Assembly (NCBI GenBank): GCA_033558025.1
Contig: JAUCEF010000001.1
Coordinates: forward strand, 1,798,001-1,862,000
Source: Phytophthora sp. 'mugwort'
Taxonomy: Eukaryota; Oomycota; Peronosporomycetes; Peronosporales; Peronosporaceae
Reading direction: 5' to 3'
DNA: 64,000 nucleotides
Shown: in pieces, positions 20,790 to 37,851 of the stretch
Layout: every line of letters starts with the position of its first letter
How positions within the stretch are numbered: position 1 is the first letter of the stretch
The notes under the pieces: model-generated
What the model saw: the letters and a program-made list of their open reading frames with translations, nothing else
Database searches by the model: none
What the model was told of the DNA's origin: nothing
Translations under genes and position numbers: made by a program

Positions 20790-20873
20790 ATATTGCTTTT
20801 GTGTAGCATACAATTATTTCGTACTTACTGTAGGTAGAGTGCTAAGCTACATGCATGTCACGTGTGTACCGTA

Positions 20874-20889
20874 CATCCATTTGCAATTT
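20874..20889 (+). promoter_or_regulatory. Possible Inr of hAT-derived gene
   Basis: CATCCATTTGCAATTT resembles the oomycete initiator plus flanking element (TCATTYYNCAWTTT) with one base missing. It is about 65 bases upstream of the ATG at 20954. Motif match only. Confidence 0.4.
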
Positions 20890-20953
20890 CTACATCCCCG
20901 CCCAATTCAGTGCAAAATTCACCATTGAATCGCCCGCGCACGTGCGATTCAGT

Positions 20954-23900
20954 ATGGCCTCGTCAACTTCGTGCACTTCAACTTCCGCTCTCTACGCGAG
21001 CTCGAGTACCGAGCAAGATGTGGACATGACGCTTCAGGCAGCAATTGAAGCCTCCAAGGACGACACCGACGAGGCTCTGGCGCTCCTGAACAGCACCGAT
21101 CATCCGCCGCGCGAGCTCATGGCCCCCGCCGCCGCAACCCCCAGCGCACAAGACGCTTCCCATAGCAGCGCGGCATTACCGCCCAATACGAGTACTCGAC
21201 CAGCCACAATAGCAATGGGGTCTAAAGTCAAAGCCACCGGCTCTAGTAATGTGTCGGCTGTGTATCGTTGGTATGAGGTGGAGGAGAGCTTCAGCGCCAA
21301 GAAGCGCGAGGAATCGTCCATTGCCAAGTGCAAATTGTGCCGGCAACAGGGCAAACTGGAGCGCAAAACGTGCGTTCGATTTAGCAAGAGTGTGACCTCC
21401 AATTTGTGGCGACACCTCAAGGAGAACCACCCGGATATATACGAGAAGCACAGGGGCGAGAAGAAGAGCGTGCAGATGCATCGGGTCATGGGCGTAAAGA
21501 GGCGGGGGAGGAAGAAGAAGGTGGTGGCTCCGACTCCACCCGCTGCAGCGATGCCAGATGCAGTGCCTGGTTTGGTCGATCATGACGTGGGATCCACTGC
21601 CAAGTTGCAAACACCGACTGGAGATAGCATCGGACAGTCGACAACTACTCTCCGTCAACCAGCCAAAAAAGCGAAGAGAGGAGATCCCCCAACTCCCGTG
21701 TTTTCTGATTATCAATCAGGTATAGTGGGGAGCGCCTTGCAGCGCCAGCATCAAACGGCTAGCCGACGGGGAGTTCTGTCTGTAGGCAGATCAAATACTG
21801 CTGGGATATCTGGTCCGGGCAACTTTAATCCGGAGAAGGTGCGCGAGGCGATCGGATACTTGTGTCTATATGAAATGCTGCCGTTCGAGTTGTGTTCGAG
21901 CCACGCATTCCGAAACCTCATGGTGGAGTGCTCTGGAGGCGCTGGGGGCTTCGTGGATGACTCCAATAGTTTTGCACTATTTGCTAAGGAGATTGCGTTT
22001 GGATACGCCAAGAAGATGGCTGCAGAAGTGAAGGTACGAACTGTCATGCAGATGAAGATGACTGACTTCTCGCACCTTATGATTTCTGAATGGTGCTCGT
22101 CAAACTACCCGAGCGGAAATGATACGACGGGAGCGTCATCCCTGGTCTACGGCGCACCGTCTCGCGGCAGTGATATCGTCTTTCTTGCACTTTTTGCTGT
22201 CGGACTTGACCAGGAGTTTAACCCCTTCCGTAGATGTTTACACGTCTCACCTATTGAAAGCTGCCACACAGGGCATGCAAATCCCATCGCAGCAAAACTT
22301 GCCGGAGATAAAGAGCTTAAGAAGGCGATGGATCGCGTCGTGCCTTGTCGATACATGCCGGAAATTCTTGCAGTGGAGCCGCCGTGTAGCGAGTATCAGC
22401 CTGTCTTTGTGGATCACAAGTTGCATTTTCTCGAGAGTATTCCAACAGTGCTGCAAAATATCATGGTTGCTACCATTAATGGGGGCCGCATCTCCGGGAG
22501 CTATTGTTTAGGCAGCGATGTGTTGACGGATGCAGGCACTTCTGGGTCTCTGCGCTTTCGAAACTGGCGATTGGACAGAGGCGAACACGTCGAGAGCAGT
22601 TCCGCTGGAATTGCTACTGGATCGTCGAGTGATGCCTTTTATGACCTCTCGGCGGGGGAAATTCCTTCTAGCATTCTTGAGGAATTACCCACTAATCTCA
22701 CGGGCCACACGTATCGTGATCTCATTAATAAGGTCATGTATCTTCTCGCGCACCTCAAGCAATCACCTAGGTCGCGAAGAGTGTTGCGAAGACTAGCTCT
22801 GGAGCAATGCAATATCAGCGCAGATTCGTATGAGCGTCTGTTTATTGACCGCCTTCGAGACATGACGATATCGCTGGCTGAAATTCATTCCGTACTAGCG
22901 CTTGTTGGAGACATGATGCCAGCTCTGAAGCAGTACTTCTTGATGCACAAGGACGGTGATTCGGACTTCTCCAAACTGATCCAGCTGTCTTGCTTATCTC
23001 GGTACGAGTGGTTTCGAGTCCGCTATCTCACGGTGATACTGAAGCCATTCGCTGAGGCTACAACGAAGCTCGATGGTGAAAAGTACGTCGTTTCGTCATT
23101 AATCGTGCCGTCGGTGTTTACTTTAATCGAGAAGCTGCGCGAACCACACCCATTGAATATTAGACTCCACGGCGAGCTGTCTGGTAGAGGTCTTGCCAAG
23201 AGAAATGACGCCGAGGTTCTGGAAGATCTGCCTGAAGACATCGAGGTGCTGAGGGAGCTGGCATTTACTAACTTGTCTGCGTGCTTTGGGCATCTGTTTT
23301 CGGTTCCAGACGATACATGGAGTTTGGAGAAACGGCAAACCTTCAACCTATTGTGGTCTGCAACGATATTAGATCCCCGAACACGGTCGTTCATTATTAA
23401 AGGTTCTCTGCCCCAACAAGAGTTCTGGGAAATTGTCAAGGCAGAGGCAGCAAATATTGCTGGCACCAAGATGAAGGACAAGGACAACGGAAGCGACCTT
23501 GGGGAAAGCTCAATCACTATGGACGAAGACAACGGGCACTTGGACGGGAATGGCGTGGCTAAGAGCACTGATTTGTGGGACGATCTCCAAGCAAACTTGG
23601 CATCTTGTGCACAAGAAGAGATGATGCTGAGCTCCGCAAAGTCGTCGTTGGAGATTACAAAGTCTAGCAACTTGCTGGAAGTGGAAGTGTCGTTTTTCCA
23701 GGAAGAAGGGCGTATCGCACTGCGCGCCAACCCCTTAGAGTGGTGGCAGAACATGCGCATGAAGTATCCATTCCTAGCACGGTTGGCTCGCTACGTGCTA
23801 TCCATTCCGTGCAACGTCAAAGTAGACGACAACCCAGTCGTGTGCGATGGAGGTCTTGCCCAGCGTGGGCCGTCCCAAATGAGCATGGCAGATTTGTGCG

Positions 23901-23986
23901 ATCTGCTCGCGGCGTCGATGAATCTTCGCACGGAGAAGAACTCGCATTTTGAAGCGGCAAGCAAGCAGATGTGGTCAACGGTATGA
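20954..23986 (+). CDS. UIM-BED zinc finger, hAT-transposase-derived protein
   Basis: 1010 aa in one uninterrupted exon; ATG 20954 (MASSTSCTST) is preferred because it follows an initiator-like site, although the frame is open to 20855. The N-terminus holds DVDMTLQAAIEASKDD (22-37), which fits a ubiquitin-interacting motif. A BED-type zinc finger spans about 102-168: CKLC..., then LWRHLKENH gives C-x2-C..H-x4-H. A Lys/Arg cluster (KRRGRKKK) looks like a nuclear signal. The middle resembles a hAT catalytic region and residues about 925-955 match the hAT dimerisation region (PLEWWQNMRMKYPFLARLAR, then YVLSIP). Downstream of that the usual SERVFS motif is missing. No terminal repeats flank it. 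An intact frame among dead transposons suggests a domesticated DNA-binding host gene; this is inference. Confidence 0.75.
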   Translation: MASSTSCTSTSALYASSSTEQDVDMTLQAAIEASKDDTDEALALLNSTDHPPRELMAPAAATPSAQDASHSSAALPPNTSTRPATIAMGSKVKATGSSNVSAVYRWYEVEESFSAKKREESSIAKCKLCRQQGKLERKTCVRFSKSVTSNLWRHLKENHPDIYEKHRGEKKSVQMHRVMGVKRRGRKKKVVAPTPPAAAMPDAVPGLVDHDVGSTAKLQTPTGDSIGQSTTTLRQPAKKAKRGDPPTPVFSDYQSGIVGSALQRQHQTASRRGVLSVGRSNTAGISGPGNFNPEKVREAIGYLCLYEMLPFELCSSHAFRNLMVECSGGAGGFVDDSNSFALFAKEIAFGYAKKMAAEVKVRTVMQMKMTDFSHLMISEWCSSNYPSGNDTTGASSLVYGAPSRGSDIVFLALFAVGLDQEFNPFRRCLHVSPIESCHTGHANPIAAKLAGDKELKKAMDRVVPCRYMPEILAVEPPCSEYQPVFVDHKLHFLESIPTVLQNIMVATINGGRISGSYCLGSDVLTDAGTSGSLRFRNWRLDRGEHVESSSAGIATGSSSDAFYDLSAGEIPSSILEELPTNLTGHTYRDLINKVMYLLAHLKQSPRSRRVLRRLALEQCNISADSYERLFIDRLRDMTISLAEIHSVLALVGDMMPALKQYFLMHKDGDSDFSKLIQLSCLSRYEWFRVRYLTVILKPFAEATTKLDGEKYVVSSLIVPSVFTLIEKLREPHPLNIRLHGELSGRGLAKRNDAEVLEDLPEDIEVLRELAFTNLSACFGHLFSVPDDTWSLEKRQTFNLLWSATILDPRTRSFIIKGSLPQQEFWEIVKAEAANIAGTKMKDKDNGSDLGESSITMDEDNGHLDGNGVAKSTDLWDDLQANLASCAQEEMMLSSAKSSLEITKSSNLLEVEVSFFQEEGRIALRANPLEWWQNMRMKYPFLARLARYVLSIPCNVKVDDNPVVCDGGLAQRGPSQMSMADLCDLLAASMNLRTEKNSHFEAASKQMWSTV

Positions 23987-29393: not shown

Positions 29394-32300
29394 ATGGCGA
29401 CGGAAGATCACGCAGCAACGTGCATTCAAGCGGGATTCCGCGGCTTTCGATGGCGAAAGAAGCAATGTCGAGGCGTCGTAGGATACTTTTAGTACGGCGT
29501 ACCGATGTTTAATGCACTCATCGAATTCATGTCTTGGCAGAGAGCCGTGACTAAGCTTCAGGCACTGCAACGTGGACGCTTTACCCGTCGAGAGTTTGCT
29601 CAACTACGTGATTTTTCAAGAGAGCAGGTAATGCCAAGTCTCAATGTAGCCTCAATTCTGCGTGGTTTGTCGATAACGGATATGCGGGGAATGATCTTCA
29701 TACAGGAAAACTACCAGCAAGCAACAAGGCGTCGACAACTTCGTATCTGGCGCAACGAGCAGGAACTCTACTTCTTGCAACATACCAATGCAGCGAATCT
29801 TGAGAGAGTGCGTGTTTTCCAGCAGCAGCACTCGGCCAGGCTGATTCAACGATGCTGGCGTGCTGTAAACCATTCAACGGCCTCGAGAGGAGCCAAGGAA
29901 GAAGATGTCACTCCAAGTGACCGCATTTACACGTTTGACCCGTTTGGACTCGCAAGTGTTGATGCTGAAGCACAGACCGTTCGCTTCAGTCAGTGGAGTC
30001 GGGGTAGCGAGTGCGCTAACCCCTCACAGCTTTCTCCTTCACTTGCTTTGAACGAAAGAGAACTAAGTGCTTCTGGTTCTACTCGAGATTTCGTGACTGC
30101 AATTGCTAATGAAGACGCATTCGCATCAAGGCGGAGGATGATTCAGGAACGGTGTGTTGAATGCTTTTTTTTAAATTATCTTGCCAATTTTTAGTATCCT
30201 CATGTCGCTTTTTATGACTAGAATCAAACGTAAGGCGGCTCAGGAGAAAGTCAAGGCTGATGCTGCTCTACACGCAAGCAAATCATCAATACGTTATGAC
30301 ACGAGAGAGGTCTCAAATCGAGGAATGAATCGACGGCGCGAACTGTACGAGCAAGTGGTAGCAATGAAATGTGCCACTGCACAACGGGTATTTCGATACG
30401 AACGTGAAATTCGAGCGACACGACAAGGGCGAGACTTGTTTTCAGCTCAGCTTGTAGCAAGCTGCGAGAACCGAATAAAGCACCTTCAAGTTGAATCGCC
30501 AGAGCAAATGATACCTTTGAAAGAGGACAACCAACAAGTTTATGACGAGATGGAGACGTGGGGTCCGGCAAGATGCATTCGCGCTTGGGAACACCATCGA
30601 CGTGCGGTGCGCTCCGTGTTGGAGAAGCGCTATTGGTGGCAGACGCAACTTGCTGGTGATGAACGCGACATTCGGCAGGTCGTGATGGCAAAAAGCCCAT
30701 GGGAAGACGAGAACAAGATTTGGTGTTGGCCTAGTGGTGAAAGTAGCAACCAGAATGTGCACGGAGCTACTCGTATCGACGACGATTCACCACATTGTTC
30801 TTCCTCAAACTCTGTGTGGCCTTCGGTGGAAATTGAACGGTTCTTAGTCGGCGATAAGAACCTCGAAGACATGGAGAAGCAGCGGATTAAACCTGTTAGT
30901 GACGATGAAGCATCCGAATGGTGGCGGGCACATTGTACACAGTCGCATTTGGCTATCAATGGGGCGTTGATGATCGAGAAACCGTATAGTGCTGAATTCA
31001 GCAACAATGTAAGCGATGAAGGTGACGTTTTACCAGTTTGTACCTCGGAGGTGGTGGCCAATCGTGACTTGTACAAGCTACAGCAACGAGCTAAGCGCGC
31101 TGCACGTACGAAGAGTCTTGAACAGGATATCGAGCAGCGAATTAAAAATTTGACCGCTCAAGTGGAGCGGCGCGTGCATGAGATGGAAGTCCAAGTTGAG
31201 GCCAACACGCAGTTAGCGCTTAAAATCGTGCATCGAAAAGAGGAGCAGCGAGCACGAATTACCCGCGAACAGCAATCTGCTATGACAATCCAACGCTACG
31301 CCCGCGGAATGCAAGGCCGAAAGTATGCCCGAGAGGTACGCGCTGAGTTCTTCGTAATGGTACGTGGGCGTGCCATTCGACGTGGTAGATGCGAGGAATG
31401 TGGAGATCAGCGTGCTGTACTCGAATGCCAGCAGTGCGAGGAAAGTCTTCACTTCTGTCCAATCTGCTGGGTGCACGTGCACTCCACGCGAAGACGCAAG
31501 ACGCACGTGGCGATACCAATGACAACTGTCGTAGCCCCGATACTCGTGCAAGAAGTAGCGAGTACGAAGGCCTTGACTTTGAAAGAGCAGACAACCGACT
31601 CAATCAAAGGAAAATTCGTCAATGACGAGGGTTCTTTTGATCCAAGTCTGCGAGCACTTCCATCCCCACCAAAGCAAAGCACAACACGATCTGCCGAGCC
31701 TGCAGCAGTCAAGGTGAAGAAGCCTGTGGTTGGTTCTAAAGTTCAGTCCTCTCAGCAGGGACGCACAGTATCATCGAACGTCGTCGACGCATGCAAAAGC
31801 ACCACACCTGAACTAGTCGAGGCGTGTGCCCTGGCCCGACGTGTGAGGGCAGAAGTAAAAGAAGTATCCTCGACGGCAGACAATATTGAATTCGTTCCTG
31901 GACAGAAGCGTAATACAAATAGAGCAACGGATAGAGTCCAAATTCAACCCCCAGAAGACGTATCACCTCAAGAGAACTCGGCAAACGATGAAGTTGACTT
32001 CTCAAATGGCGACGGCGATAACGCCCAGATGATGAAAGCTGGAATTCTTTCGGAAGAGCAGCAAGGATATGTTGAGGCTCCAGGAAGTAAGCAGCCATTG
32101 ACGTCAGAACCAGTGAGTTTGCTGTCAGAGTCGATTTCTTCAGAAGGAAATCATGGCTTGCACTCGACTGGTTCGGTATTAACCGCAATCTCCTCCGTTG
32201 CTAAAGCCATCACGGAATCGATGGAACAAGAAGCAGAATCCACTGCGGAGCTGAGCGCCGACGTTGATGCAGCCAGCATTGATGCGACTAATTGTTCTGA

Positions 32301-32568
32301 AATCACCGAAGCTTCATTAGGTGAAGCGAATGGAGACACGGAAAACTCAGTAAGGCCAAAAATTGCTGGGGCTACACCAGTACTAGCAGATCGCCCTATA
32401 CCAAATGATACAACAATTAATTCCCCGCCATCAAACGATGCACTAAGATTACCAGAAACGGAGCAAGTCAGCGAAGTCGGCGTCACAGCTGAACAACCAG
32501 GGACTACGCCCGAAGATGCTCAACCTACAAGACGATCAACTGACGAGCCACCACAGCAGGACAGCTGA
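29394..32568 (+). CDS. IQ-motif and B-box zinc finger coiled-coil protein
   Basis: Three exons, join(29394..29477, 29541..30151, 30195..32568), 1022 aa. Intron 1 (63 bp, GTAGGA..TGGCAG) and intron 2 (43 bp, GTGTGT..TTTTAG) both keep the frame, and joining them makes consecutive IQ motifs. IQ motifs: ATCIQAGFRGFRWRKKQ (8-24), AVTKLQALQRGRFTRREF (30-47), ARLIQRCWRAV (about 135) and AMTIQRYARGMQGRKYAREV (about 592). A coiled coil (about 525-595) precedes a B-box-like finger, CEECGDQRAVLECQQCEESL...CPICWVHVH (about 630-671). The last third is Ser/Glu/Thr-rich and probably disordered. IQ motifs bind calmodulin or myosin light-chain-like proteins. Similar architecture occurs in oomycete flagellar or cytoskeletal proteins, but the role is unknown. 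Confidence 0.8.
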
Positions 32569-34095: not shown

Positions 34096-37000
34096 ATGCA
34101 GAGCAGCATGAGCGAGGCAGCGGGCGATGCTCTGAAGCTACGGCTCAAGCTTAAGCTGCCGCGCTCGATGTCCGTGTCCTCTGTGGCCGAGGAAGCGCAC
34201 AAGAAGCTGCTGATCGGCGCGCGGGGCGGTGCCGCCGTCAAGGAGCTGCTGAGCACGGCGCCTAACATTGAGGTGGCCATCCGGGACTTCCAGGCGGCCC
34301 ATGGTGTCGCGGAGGCCCACGCACAGCTCTTTGCCCGCACGAAAGAGAGCAAAAGGAAGGAGCATCTCACGACCTTCACTCCGGCAGTACAGCTGCTGGA
34401 TCTGCTTCAGGTGCCGCGCTCCAGCATGTACCAATCGCTCTTGGAGCATATGAAGAAGGAGATGCTGCTACGCATTGCAGACTTGCCGCAGAGCGAACTG
34501 CCTAGAGTGCTGGAGCAGACCTTTCCGTACATTGAGTTCCGAGAGCTTCGAGCCATCCCGATCGCGGTATTGGCCAGACAAGAAGACACACCGGAGCTGT
34601 ATCTACGCGAGTTGACGGAGAACCGACGAATTCTCGCCGAATTGCCAGTGCATGTGAGGAGGAAGATCCTGCAAGTGGATAAGAGAGAGCTGCAGCTCCT
34701 CGTGGAGGAGTGTACGCGCGAATATGTGACCGAACAACTGGAGTGGTATCTCAATCATCCGACGTCGGGATCCGCGACGACCCATCGCTCAATGTCGAGG
34801 AGGAACAGCAATAATAGCATGCGCACTGGTAACCACAACAGGAAGCGCAGCCTAGATGATTTGGCAGGTGGTAATTTGTGGAACGTATTAAGTCACGTTC
34901 CATCTTCAGCTGATACTGATGGATCGTCATCATTATCGTCTGGGCTTAGTGGAGAGCGACGTCCCTCGCACTCTAGAGACGAACGCCGACGTAATAACCC
35001 GTCCCTCATGAAGCTAGTGGAGATGCTGGGTGACTCAGAGTCGCTATACCTTTCGACACTGGAGATCTGGCGAAGTTACGTGGTTGCTGCGAAAATTCCC
35101 GGTACTGCCACGAATAATCATCCGAAAGAATATGTGGACTATGTACCACTTCTTGGAGCGATGCGCAGTGATCTCGCCAACCTACAGCGTGACAAAACAA
35201 CGCCACTTCTGCGAACTGATCCGCTACACAAGTTCATTTGGTTTTTAGATCGTGCATTAAAGAACCAGACTCTAGAGATCGCTCAGCTTCACGAACTACT
35301 AGGATTTATTGGCCGACTACGTACGTCGGACCTGCCGCCCAACAAGAAGTTCCGCAAGAAAAGTGGTGCCGAGGAGGAAGAGGAAAGTTTTGAAGTCGTG
35401 TTAGGACCACCGCCTGTGGACGAACTTCTCGCTGTGCTCGACAAGATCGCAAAAATTGATGCGCGGTTGATTTTCGCTGAACCAGTGCCGGATGATGTAC
35501 CGAAATATCGAGAGATTATTAGCGACCCCATGGACTTGTCAATGATGCGGAGAAAAGCCAAACGCGGCAAGTACAAAACACTGGACGCATTTGTGACCGA
35601 CTTTAATCTTATGATCCGCAACTGTATGACATTCAACCCGGACACGACTATTTTTTACAAGGAAGGAAAGCGCATTGGCAAGCGTGGAAACGAGCTGATA
35701 GAGCGAAATGCCGCAGCTTTGCGTGGCGAACCTCAGCGAATCCGCACTAAGAAACGCCGCAAGACCGGAAGCGGCCCCACAAGCGAGGCTCTTAGCATGC
35801 TCACAAGTTCTGGTGTTGTGACGATCAAGGACTTCGGTGATGTTGACCAGTCGGGGATGATTCCGGAAGGCATATGCGATGAGCTGTTGGCAGATGTGGC
35901 TCTCGTTTTGTCGGATCCGCTTGTAAAACAGCTTATATGCGATGCACTTATGCAGAACCTAGTGGTGTGCTGGCAGCGGAAAGAGCTACCTACGGACAAC
36001 CTGATCTGCCGTGCGCTTGTTCAACTTCTTCAGATTGGTAACCCATCTAGTGTACGCCGCATGATTCGGAAGCAGGACTTCGTACTGCGTGCTCCGCAAG
36101 TAGTAACTATGCGTGTTGTGCTGCCCCTATTGCTGCGCACGATGGTTGGATTTCATGTGTACTATGCGTTTCCCGCTGGATTCCAGCGTGATTTAAAGAC
36201 AAAAGCGAGGGAAGACGTCTTGAGTGCCACGCTGTGGGAAAACGTGCTGCGCGCAAGCTCAACTATTCGCGCCATGGTCAAGTCGTTTGCCGTGCAATGC
36301 CTGGTAGACCACCAAATTGAAACGGGGTCGCAGCTGCTGCATCATTTGTTTGCGGCTGAGGAGGAAACGCTTCTGCGGGATCGTGTTTTGCTCCATTCAG
36401 TAGCAGAAGTCGTGCTGGAGCAGGTAAAGTTGGCCGCCGCGAGCACTAGCAGCAGCAACACTATTGATGGTGGGTCGAGTTCTGCTGAAAATGGTGAGGT
36501 AACGATGACACTGGGCGAGCAGTTGCAATCTTTGCCAATATGGAAGCAGATCTTCGACTGTTTCTTTGTGGACGTCCTCGGGAAGCGTATCCAGGCGGCA
36601 AAGGAAGCGACTGGATCTGTTGTGCATTTTGATGATGGTGCGGTTGAGTCGGTTGAGTCGGTTGAGGAGGAGTACGACACCACTGTCTCGGGCGAAACAC
36701 CATCGAAGAAGCGCAAGCGACAACATGCGATTAAAAGTTTTCCAACTCCAATATTTCACGAGAAAACATTGATGATGCTGTCGTCGTTATTCGCTATTAT
36801 CGAAAAAGGGGGATCTACAGCAGGAAGTGACGCGATGATCACTTCGTATCTAACGAATACTTTGGGCGTCTTGCGTACCCACTGCTCGTCATTGGAGGAA
36901 TTTAATGCTCTGTGGGATAGCACTGTGTTCTCTGAGTGCCGGCAGTTCTACGAGCCAATGTTATCTAAGTGCCCTACCGTGCAAAAAAAGTTGTTTGCTG

Positions 37001-37851
37001 TATTATCGTCGGATGTGAAGACTGAAGCTGTTACAGTGCAAATGCGAAAAAGTGAGCCTGCGGTCGTCGTTGCGAAGACGCAAGATGGCACCTCAGACAT
37101 GAAGTTACAAGATACTATCACAGATGAAAAGGTAACGGATGTGACTGTCAAGTCGGAAGGCGCTGACGAAGAAGCCAAGCCTGAAGATAGCAATGGCTCT
37201 ATTCCCGAAGGGAGTAGACTCGCTAATGAGGAAGCAAGCACAGCTGTCAAAGATGAAGCTGCTGCCTCCAGCGCTGATAACAAGGTTGAAGAGGCTAGCT
37301 CTGCTGTCGAAATGGGCAATGACAAGACACCTGAGGGTACAAAAAATAGCAAAGCAGTTGACAACTCCACTGCAAGCGCGGATGCTGTTGCTGTCCATGA
37401 CAATGTGGAAAGTAATGACGTTGCTGTCAACACTGAAAATGCGGAGACAGATGTCGATTCTATGGCTACTGCTGCTGAGAACAACCAAGAAAACAACGAC
37501 ACTGATGTGAAGATGGAAATGGTCGAAGAGGAAGCTATATCCAGTGTATTTACGACGGAACACAACGTTAGTGGTGCTTCTATGGACGCTCCTGGTGGTA
37601 GTTCTTCTGAAGTCTACCCTGCAATAACACCAACGGCGAAGAACAGTAGCGGATCTACGGCTGCAGCTACATCCCAAAATGGGGAACAAAATGGCGGAAC
37701 TGTTGATACAGACAATAATACTGATGTTTCTGTTGATACCACCGACACACAGAACCAAGTTGCTGTAGAGCCGACTGTGAAGACTAAAAACGCCGGGAAA
37801 GAGGAAACACAACTGATTGTAGAAGAAGAAAAGGAGGCGCCCGAGACGTAA
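34096..37851 (+). CDS. NELFB: NELF-B (COBRA1) with embedded bromodomain
   Basis: 1251 aa, one exon. Residues about 55-215 and 295-425 follow NELF-B/COBRA1: TPAVQLLDLLQVPRSSMYQS, ELPRVLEQTFPYIEFRELR, LPVHVRRKILQVDKREL, then LMKLVEMLGDSESLYLSTLE and TDPLHKFIWFLDRAL. After a short acidic linker a complete bromodomain occupies about 438-542: PVPDDVPKYREIISDPMDLS is the ZA loop and NCMTFNPDTTIFYKEG holds the acetyl-lysine-binding Asn (N514), closest to the BRPF/BRD7-9 group. NELF-B similarity resumes at about 600 (VLSDPLVKQLICDAL) and continues through helical segments to about 960. The last 250 residues are acidic and disordered. NELF holds RNA polymerase II at promoter-proximal pauses; the bromodomain should tie this subunit to acetylated chromatin (inference). 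The human protein (about 580 aa) has no bromodomain. Confidence 0.85.
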   Translation: MQSSMSEAAGDALKLRLKLKLPRSMSVSSVAEEAHKKLLIGARGGAAVKELLSTAPNIEVAIRDFQAAHGVAEAHAQLFARTKESKRKEHLTTFTPAVQLLDLLQVPRSSMYQSLLEHMKKEMLLRIADLPQSELPRVLEQTFPYIEFRELRAIPIAVLARQEDTPELYLRELTENRRILAELPVHVRRKILQVDKRELQLLVEECTREYVTEQLEWYLNHPTSGSATTHRSMSRRNSNNSMRTGNHNRKRSLDDLAGGNLWNVLSHVPSSADTDGSSSLSSGLSGERRPSHSRDERRRNNPSLMKLVEMLGDSESLYLSTLEIWRSYVVAAKIPGTATNNHPKEYVDYVPLLGAMRSDLANLQRDKTTPLLRTDPLHKFIWFLDRALKNQTLEIAQLHELLGFIGRLRTSDLPPNKKFRKKSGAEEEEESFEVVLGPPPVDELLAVLDKIAKIDARLIFAEPVPDDVPKYREIISDPMDLSMMRRKAKRGKYKTLDAFVTDFNLMIRNCMTFNPDTTIFYKEGKRIGKRGNELIERNAAALRGEPQRIRTKKRRKTGSGPTSEALSMLTSSGVVTIKDFGDVDQSGMIPEGICDELLADVALVLSDPLVKQLICDALMQNLVVCWQRKELPTDNLICRALVQLLQIGNPSSVRRMIRKQDFVLRAPQVVTMRVVLPLLLRTMVGFHVYYAFPAGFQRDLKTKAREDVLSATLWENVLRASSTIRAMVKSFAVQCLVDHQIETGSQLLHHLFAAEEETLLRDRVLLHSVAEVVLEQVKLAAASTSSSNTIDGGSSSAENGEVTMTLGEQLQSLPIWKQIFDCFFVDVLGKRIQAAKEATGSVVHFDDGAVESVESVEEEYDTTVSGETPSKKRKRQHAIKSFPTPIFHEKTLMMLSSLFAIIEKGGSTAGSDAMITSYLTNTLGVLRTHCSSLEEFNALWDSTVFSECRQFYEPMLSKCPTVQKKLFAVLSSDVKTEAVTVQMRKSEPAVVVAKTQDGTSDMKLQDTITDEKVTDVTVKSEGADEEAKPEDSNGSIPEGSRLANEEASTAVKDEAAASSADNKVEEASSAVEMGNDKTPEGTKNSKAVDNSTASADAVAVHDNVESNDVAVNTENAETDVDSMATAAENNQENNDTDVKMEMVEEEAISSVFTTEHNVSGASMDAPGGSSSEVYPAITPTAKNSSGSTAAATSQNGEQNGGTVDTDNNTDVSVDTTDTQNQVAVEPTVKTKNAGKEETQLIVEEEKEAPET

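Follow-up and report, generated by a model that had tools for sequence, protein, structure and literature searches.

To our knowledge, accounts of pause control treat NELF and acetyl-lysine readers as distinct actors. BRD4, of the BET group, ties acetyl-lysine reading to promoter-proximal pausing as a separate protein that acts in pause release via P-TEFb, and the bromodomain proteins BRPF1 and BRD1 are subunits of histone acetyltransferase complexes. In mammals, passages of PMC11881899 place the NELF-BE lobe beside the +1 nucleosome and describe a basic helix of NELF-E that contacts downstream and nucleosomal DNA from this lobe. Here we describe a locus of Phytophthora sp. 'mugwort' that encodes a NELF-B (COBRA1) protein with a bromodomain embedded in it; the gene lies within the window, i.e., the whole 64,000-nucleotide stretch that was analysed (contig JAUCEF010000001.1, positions 1,798,001 to 1,862,000, forward strand). 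Coordinates below are window positions, and residue numbers refer to the 1251-aa protein of the frame at 34096–37851 (+).

The initial annotation had proposed that this frame is uninterrupted and that NELF-B similarity is present on both sides of a complete bromodomain, and both claims are borne out. The interval 34096–37851 (+) is one open frame of 1251 codons whose sole stop is terminal, with 53 and 86 stops in the two other forward frames. Over the whole protein, Pfam reports COBRA1 (PF06209, 45.3 bits against a curated cut-off of 22) and Bromodomain (PF00439, residues 445–524, 73.6 bits against 21.7, E 1.3e-20); most of the oomycete relatives listed by protein searches likewise have both families. 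With the protein cut apart, the upstream flank alone (residues 38–412, 34207–35331 (+), helical and collinear with NELF-B to residue 290) retains 34.3 bits to COBRA1, its best stretch covering profile positions 87–185, and the downstream flank alone (residues 591–965, 35866–36990 (+), resuming at NELF-B residue 295) retains 17.6 bits, below the cut-off (E 0.002, profile positions 190–280). The two stretches thus follow one another in profile order, hardly any of the COBRA1 profile being lost at the insert, and PF06209 matches 14 of 14 diverse members of the family at E up to 0.01. We assign the downstream flank to NELF-B because a profile built from seven downstream flanks lists NELF-B only when compared with the PDB (all 6 rows listed up to E 10, the best at E 0.0066), because the best COBRA1 stretch of the Albugo laibachii protein P0045 and of protein P0046 lies downstream of the bromodomain, and because the predicted fold matches solved NELF-B before as well as after the bromodomain. 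A weak DUF4745 match on the same flank (E 0.0049) falls under its own Pfam cut-off. That the bromodomain is embedded in NELF-B, with both flanks genuine, we regard as practically certain.

Superposition of the predicted structure on NELF-B, which the initial annotation had suggested, shows both flanks matching the fold, with a root-mean-square deviation (rmsd) of 6.1–9.9 in the best five rows; for each predicted model, the five top structural alignments show 18–22% identity to human NELF-B. On the upstream side, sequence alignment to NELF-B extends to residue 290 (stretch E 0.55; whole match 1.8e-6), the downstream family profile match begins at NELF-B residue 295, and residues 409–594 of the protein occupy the place of NELF-B residues 291–294. 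With the bromodomain excised, the family profile spans the excision point continuously (NELF-B 248–351, stretch E 1.2e-8, overall 1.3e-19), its 6 PDB rows being NELF-B exclusively. The further claim that known NELF-B proteins have no bromodomain holds for the NELF-B chains of the PDB (554–614 residues, which we take to be human), all aligned through the insertion point insert-free; its wider wording narrows here to those chains, on which it was checked. According to passages of a crosslinking analysis of human NELF (PMC4940160), the N-terminal region of NELF-B gives way to a middle, hinge-like region at residue 291. An insert at 290/295 meets this border, and the reader therefore sits at a module border and not within a helix.

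The bromodomain itself (residues 437–545, 35404–35730 (+), BRD1/BRPF1-like) is held between a pre-bromodomain linker of varying length (residues 413–436, 35332–35403 (+), with a predicted local distance difference test score (pLDDT) below 50 over 416–434) and a post-bromodomain linker delimited by model confidence and alignment (residues 546–590, 35731–35865 (+), pLDDT below 50 over 547–585). The limits (438–542) and the acetyl-lysine Asn (514) first given for the domain prove right by structure and sequence comparison and by alignment. When 20 pocket-region positions are followed through 18 aligned sequences, 14 are identical in every row (Phe460, Ala461, Pro463, Val464, Pro465, Val468, Tyr471, Pro478, Met479, Asp480, Asn509, Cys510, Asn514, and Thr518), and position 520 is Phe in 10 and Tyr in 8. 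Among these we take Asn514 (codon 35635–35637 (+)) to be the acetyl-lysine-anchoring Asn, Tyr471 the ZA-loop Tyr, Phe460 the Phe shelf, and position 520 the gatekeeper; Asn514 is also invariant in a 25-row alignment. In all 435 pairs compared, identity is higher in the bromodomain than in the NELF flanks (mean 0.66 vs 0.52). By sequence, the top match overall is the multi-bromodomain protein PBRM1, and the nearest single-bromodomain chains are BRD1 and BRPF1, followed by a 'Bromodomain protein, putative', BRD9, and GCN5; by fold, the closest bromodomains include BRPF1 entries bound to H4K5acK8ac, H3K14ac, and H4K12ac peptides. Judged from this conservation, the domain very probably binds acetyl-lysine. 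Within its own genome, the nearest of the 25 other bromodomains compared is L025 (37% identity; tree support 96/72 with a long-branch warning, in a tree of 26 of the 30 places, the four weakest excluded), a placement that does not point to a source for the inserted bromodomain.

The same architecture recurs across the oomycetes sampled. Three protein searches, each scoring ~8000 word-sharing candidates, listed 50, 42, and 31 matches, and the counts that follow are among the matches listed. In the first, 44 of 50 carry both Pfam domains and two shorter oomycete models the bromodomain alone; the other four (P0048–P0051), three of them named non-oomycetes, have short coverage and are without COBRA1. 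P0048 (Cladochytrium replicatum) and P0049 combine the bromodomain with PF25316/PF25577, P0048 also with PF01433, presumably all TAF2-type domains. Removal of the bromodomain from the query (second search) still returned PF00439 in 42 of 42, 38 of them with PF06209 as well, and a query that included human NELF-B pieces (third search) returned PF00439 in 29 of 31, the exceptions being P0060, a 296-aa fragment on a 1.7 kb contig, and P0061, a partial, chimeric-looking model with EF hands. Relatives of the NELF part come from Phytophthora, Nothophytophthora, five genera of downy mildews (Peronospora, Plasmopara, Bremia, Hyaloperonospora, and Peronosclerospora), Globisporangium, Pythium (in P. oligandrum, orthologue P0038), Lagenidium, Albugo, Aphanomyces, Achlya, and Saprolegnia; all named genera are oomycetes, and the fusion is present in every one. 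No non-oomycete NELF-B appears among the matches listed, even with the human-piece query, so that restriction to oomycetes is not inferable from these searches.

Trees built from 30 proteins, one on the NELF part and one on the bromodomain part, both divide the 6 Saprolegniales from the remaining 24 with 100/100 support, and identities in the two parts are correlated across the 435 pairs (Spearman 0.84). The bromodomain tree (109 columns) is weak at its shallower branches (13 of 27 open, 6 starred), and the position of Albugo differs between the two trees. As far as sequences can tell, this concordance fits a single old fusion, inherited vertically. A recent insertion was considered and rejected: the GC content at third codon positions (GC3) of the bromodomain, 0.54, is close to that of the flanks (0.60 and 0.55), and the deepest split of the NELF tree recurs in that of the bromodomain.

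The assembly from which the window comes (86.3 Mb, 154 contigs) contains one full-length match to the protein, at the locus itself; the other 14 matches lie within residues 441–551, i.e., they represent other bromodomains, and there is therefore no second, bromodomain-free NELF-B at this search sensitivity. NELF-C/D (TH1, PF04858) gives four matches at one place on contig C17 (best E 3.7e-21 and 4.4e-21), two of which cross in-frame stops as expected of unspliced DNA, and Spt4 is also present. The NELF-A N-terminal family (PF23553) gave no match in this genome, an uninformative negative because the family search there with PF06209 missed the window NELF-B gene that the protein query found. The first long open stretch of NELF-C/D (384 codons in one frame, L037:2581–3732 = G000:C17:2533580–2534731, minus strand) encodes by Pfam two WW domains (PF00397, 70.2 bits over two stretches) followed by TH1 (residues 199–379, E 3.2e-22); its nearest solved WW domains are those of PRPF40A, those of PCIF1 and PIN1 being listed as well, NELF-C/D chains are matched too, and a single full-length match to the stretch exists in the genome. 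The predicted WW pair, known from this one genome, would make NELF-C/D the second NELF core subunit fused to a reader-type module.

We favor, with moderate confidence, the reading that the protein is a NELF-B whose working bromodomain tethers pausing to acetylated chromatin. The one NELF-B found in this Phytophthora-clade genome carries its functional-looking bromodomain on flexible linkers between two NELF-B helices (290/295), and would still join NELF-C/D in a complex on RNA polymerase II bound by DSIF. From there the bromodomain, whose long tethers would place it suitably, would grip acetyl-lysine on histone tails of the +1 nucleosome opposite the NELF-BE lobe, such that the paused complex would be tethered to acetylated promoter chromatin and pause strength would be set by local acetylation. 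Reading of histone acetylation by NELF-B fits both the predicted intact pocket and the position of the mammalian NELF-BE lobe by the +1 nucleosome; by that analogy, we give even weight to the bromodomain being used, or not, on the +1 nucleosome during pausing. The effect could run in either direction, toward stronger pausing or toward better recruitment to active promoters.

Several points weigh against this reading. The mammalian geometry may not carry over to oomycetes because NELF-E, or NELF itself, has been reported as animal-restricted: passages of PMC11482795 find strong evidence for NELF-E in animals only, and those of PMC11881899 call the whole of NELF metazoan-specific. The window model is of moderate confidence (pLDDT 70.4, predicted template modeling score 0.60), its superposition on NELF-B has the rmsd values given above, and Foldseek TM-scores are modest (0.27–0.37 by query, 0.44–0.62 by target). 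The linkers are predicted to be disordered, and the model would not fix the orientation of the bromodomain between them. At the level of family profiles, the downstream flank alone scores under its cut-off, and in three Aphanomyces proteins Pfam finds COBRA1 only upstream. Lastly, the ligand of the bromodomain may be non-histone.

This last point defines the rival that survives best, unlikely in our view and yet plausible, in which the bromodomain reads acetyl-lysine on other proteins (RNA polymerase II, DSIF, Integrator-like partners, or NELF-B itself) and contributes to NELF assembly or auto-regulation instead of reading chromatin. An intact pocket is silent on the identity of its ligand, linkers predicted to be disordered could let the bromodomain fold back, and a pausing-independent role has been reported for mammalian NELFB (PMC10591015). 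Against it, the histone-peptide-bound BRPF1 entries stand among the fold neighbors, and the mammalian NELF-BE lobe adjoins the nucleosome (in the passages of PMC11881899 cited above).

Improbable is a second rival, in which the domain is a structural or protein-interaction insert that has lost acetyl-lysine binding and NELF-B otherwise works as usual. Degenerate bromodomains are known; here, however, the pocket-region positions that are identical in all 18 rows include Tyr471 and Asn514, the gatekeeper admits Phe or Tyr only, and the bromodomain outstrips the NELF flanks in conservation in every pair compared. We think it somewhat more improbable again that the protein has departed from the pausing complex to act as a helical scaffold, bound to chromatin, in some other part of gene expression: its low identity to human NELF-B would suit such a role, as would the failure to find the NELF-A family (itself uninformative), but the protein is the sole NELF-B-like match in a genome that retains NELF-C/D, the partner of NELF-B. 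Apparent fusions in raw genomes are often merge artefacts, and the idea that annotation or assembly merged two adjacent genes here is rejected as wholly improbable, given the single frame, NELF-B sequence to either side of the bromodomain, the same domain pair across many oomycete genera, and the shared deepest split and correlated identities of the two parts.

Extending the preferred reading, that of a NELF-B whose bromodomain tethers pausing to chromatin, we tentatively suggest that the oomycete pausing complex may have been rebuilt as a NELF core with its own readers (the bromodomain of NELF-B and two N-terminal WW domains of NELF-C/D) and no animal-type NELF-E. The bromodomain would hold the complex to the acetylated +1 nucleosome and so replace the nucleosome contact of mammalian NELF-E, and the two WW domains would engage polymerase tails that are proline-rich or phosphorylated; if true, pausing would be gated directly by histone acetylation and the state of the polymerase carboxy-terminal domain.

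Directly after the bromodomain lies a basic stretch, RIRTKKRRK (residues 548–556, 35737–35763 (+)), which in the 18-row alignment is retained with small changes in 10 rows of Phytophthora, downy mildew, Pythium, Globisporangium, or Lagenidium type, altered in 2 Albugo-type rows, and absent from the 6 Saprolegniales rows; it is a possible nuclear signal or DNA contact. The frame ends in an acidic, low-complexity tail (residues 966–1251, 36991–37848 (+)) that is unconserved, 3 of its 286 positions being scorable in the same alignment. GC3 of the tail is 0.41, compared with 0.54–0.62 elsewhere in the gene, and the tail of the P. infestans orthologue P0006 contains long internal repeats. Elsewhere in the window, a 1043-codon frame at 20855–23986 (+) encodes a BED zinc finger and a hAT dimerisation region and resembles a hAT-type transposase gene, and a 788-codon frame at 30202–32568 (+) gives a weak match, CEBP_ZZ-like and zinc-binding, that scores below the curated threshold.

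Both domains are already annotated in databases, where P0016 is entered as 'putative bromodomain, cofactor of BRCA1' and P0006 as 'Cofactor of BRCA1 (COBRA1)'. The P. citrophthora orthologue P0005 bears the name 'Bromodomain and PHD finger-containing protein 3', likely a misleading one, its listed domains being the bromodomain and COBRA1. In the open-access literature, as judged by titles and the starts of abstracts (most subscription papers and supplements lying beyond this scope), no description of a bromodomain/NELF-B fusion was found among the papers listed, in which NELF and Phytophthora occurred together only in an unrelated aquaculture review. The main text of a survey of NELF evolution (PMC11482795, whose supplements may hold Pfam scans of EukProt NELF-B hits) is without the terms bromodomain, Phytophthora, oomycete, or stramenopile, and that of an oomycete domain-fusion paper (PMC2705460) is without COBRA1, BRCA1, or bromo. 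Passages of a list of oomycete gene-expression regulators (PMC4030286) include several bromodomain proteins, NELF-B not among them, and passages of a Paramecium paper (PMC12716044) describe NELF as missing in ciliates. What is new is thus a NELF-B with an added reader common to oomycetes: the domain pair is already in databases, and its interpretation is not in the literature searched. A pausing subunit with its own acetyl-lysine reader, predating the split of Saprolegniales from the other oomycetes sampled, would be a natural experiment on the coupling of pausing to chromatin, bears on how NELF functions without animal-specific subunits, and has a bromodomain architecture that major pathogens of plants and fish share.

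Set beside the known systems, the protein differs from each in a distinct way. In human NELF-B/COBRA1 (PF06209; PDB 8W8E, 8JJ6, 9J0N, 9J0O, 8UHA), residue 290 leads directly to 295, whereas the oomycete protein places a bromodomain and two linkers (186 residues) between them, is divergent in overall sequence, and adds an acidic tail. Compared with the BRD1/BRPF1 and BRD9/BRD7-type bromodomains (PF00439), that of the window sits inside a relative of a pausing factor. The metazoan NELF-E provides a nucleosome and DNA anchor from the NELF-BE lobe, and we hypothesize that anchoring of a comparable kind could come from a bromodomain on NELF-B, with no sequence relation claimed between the two. BRD4 is likewise an acetyl-lysine reader linked to pausing; in oomycetes the predicted reader is instead built into a subunit of the pausing factor.

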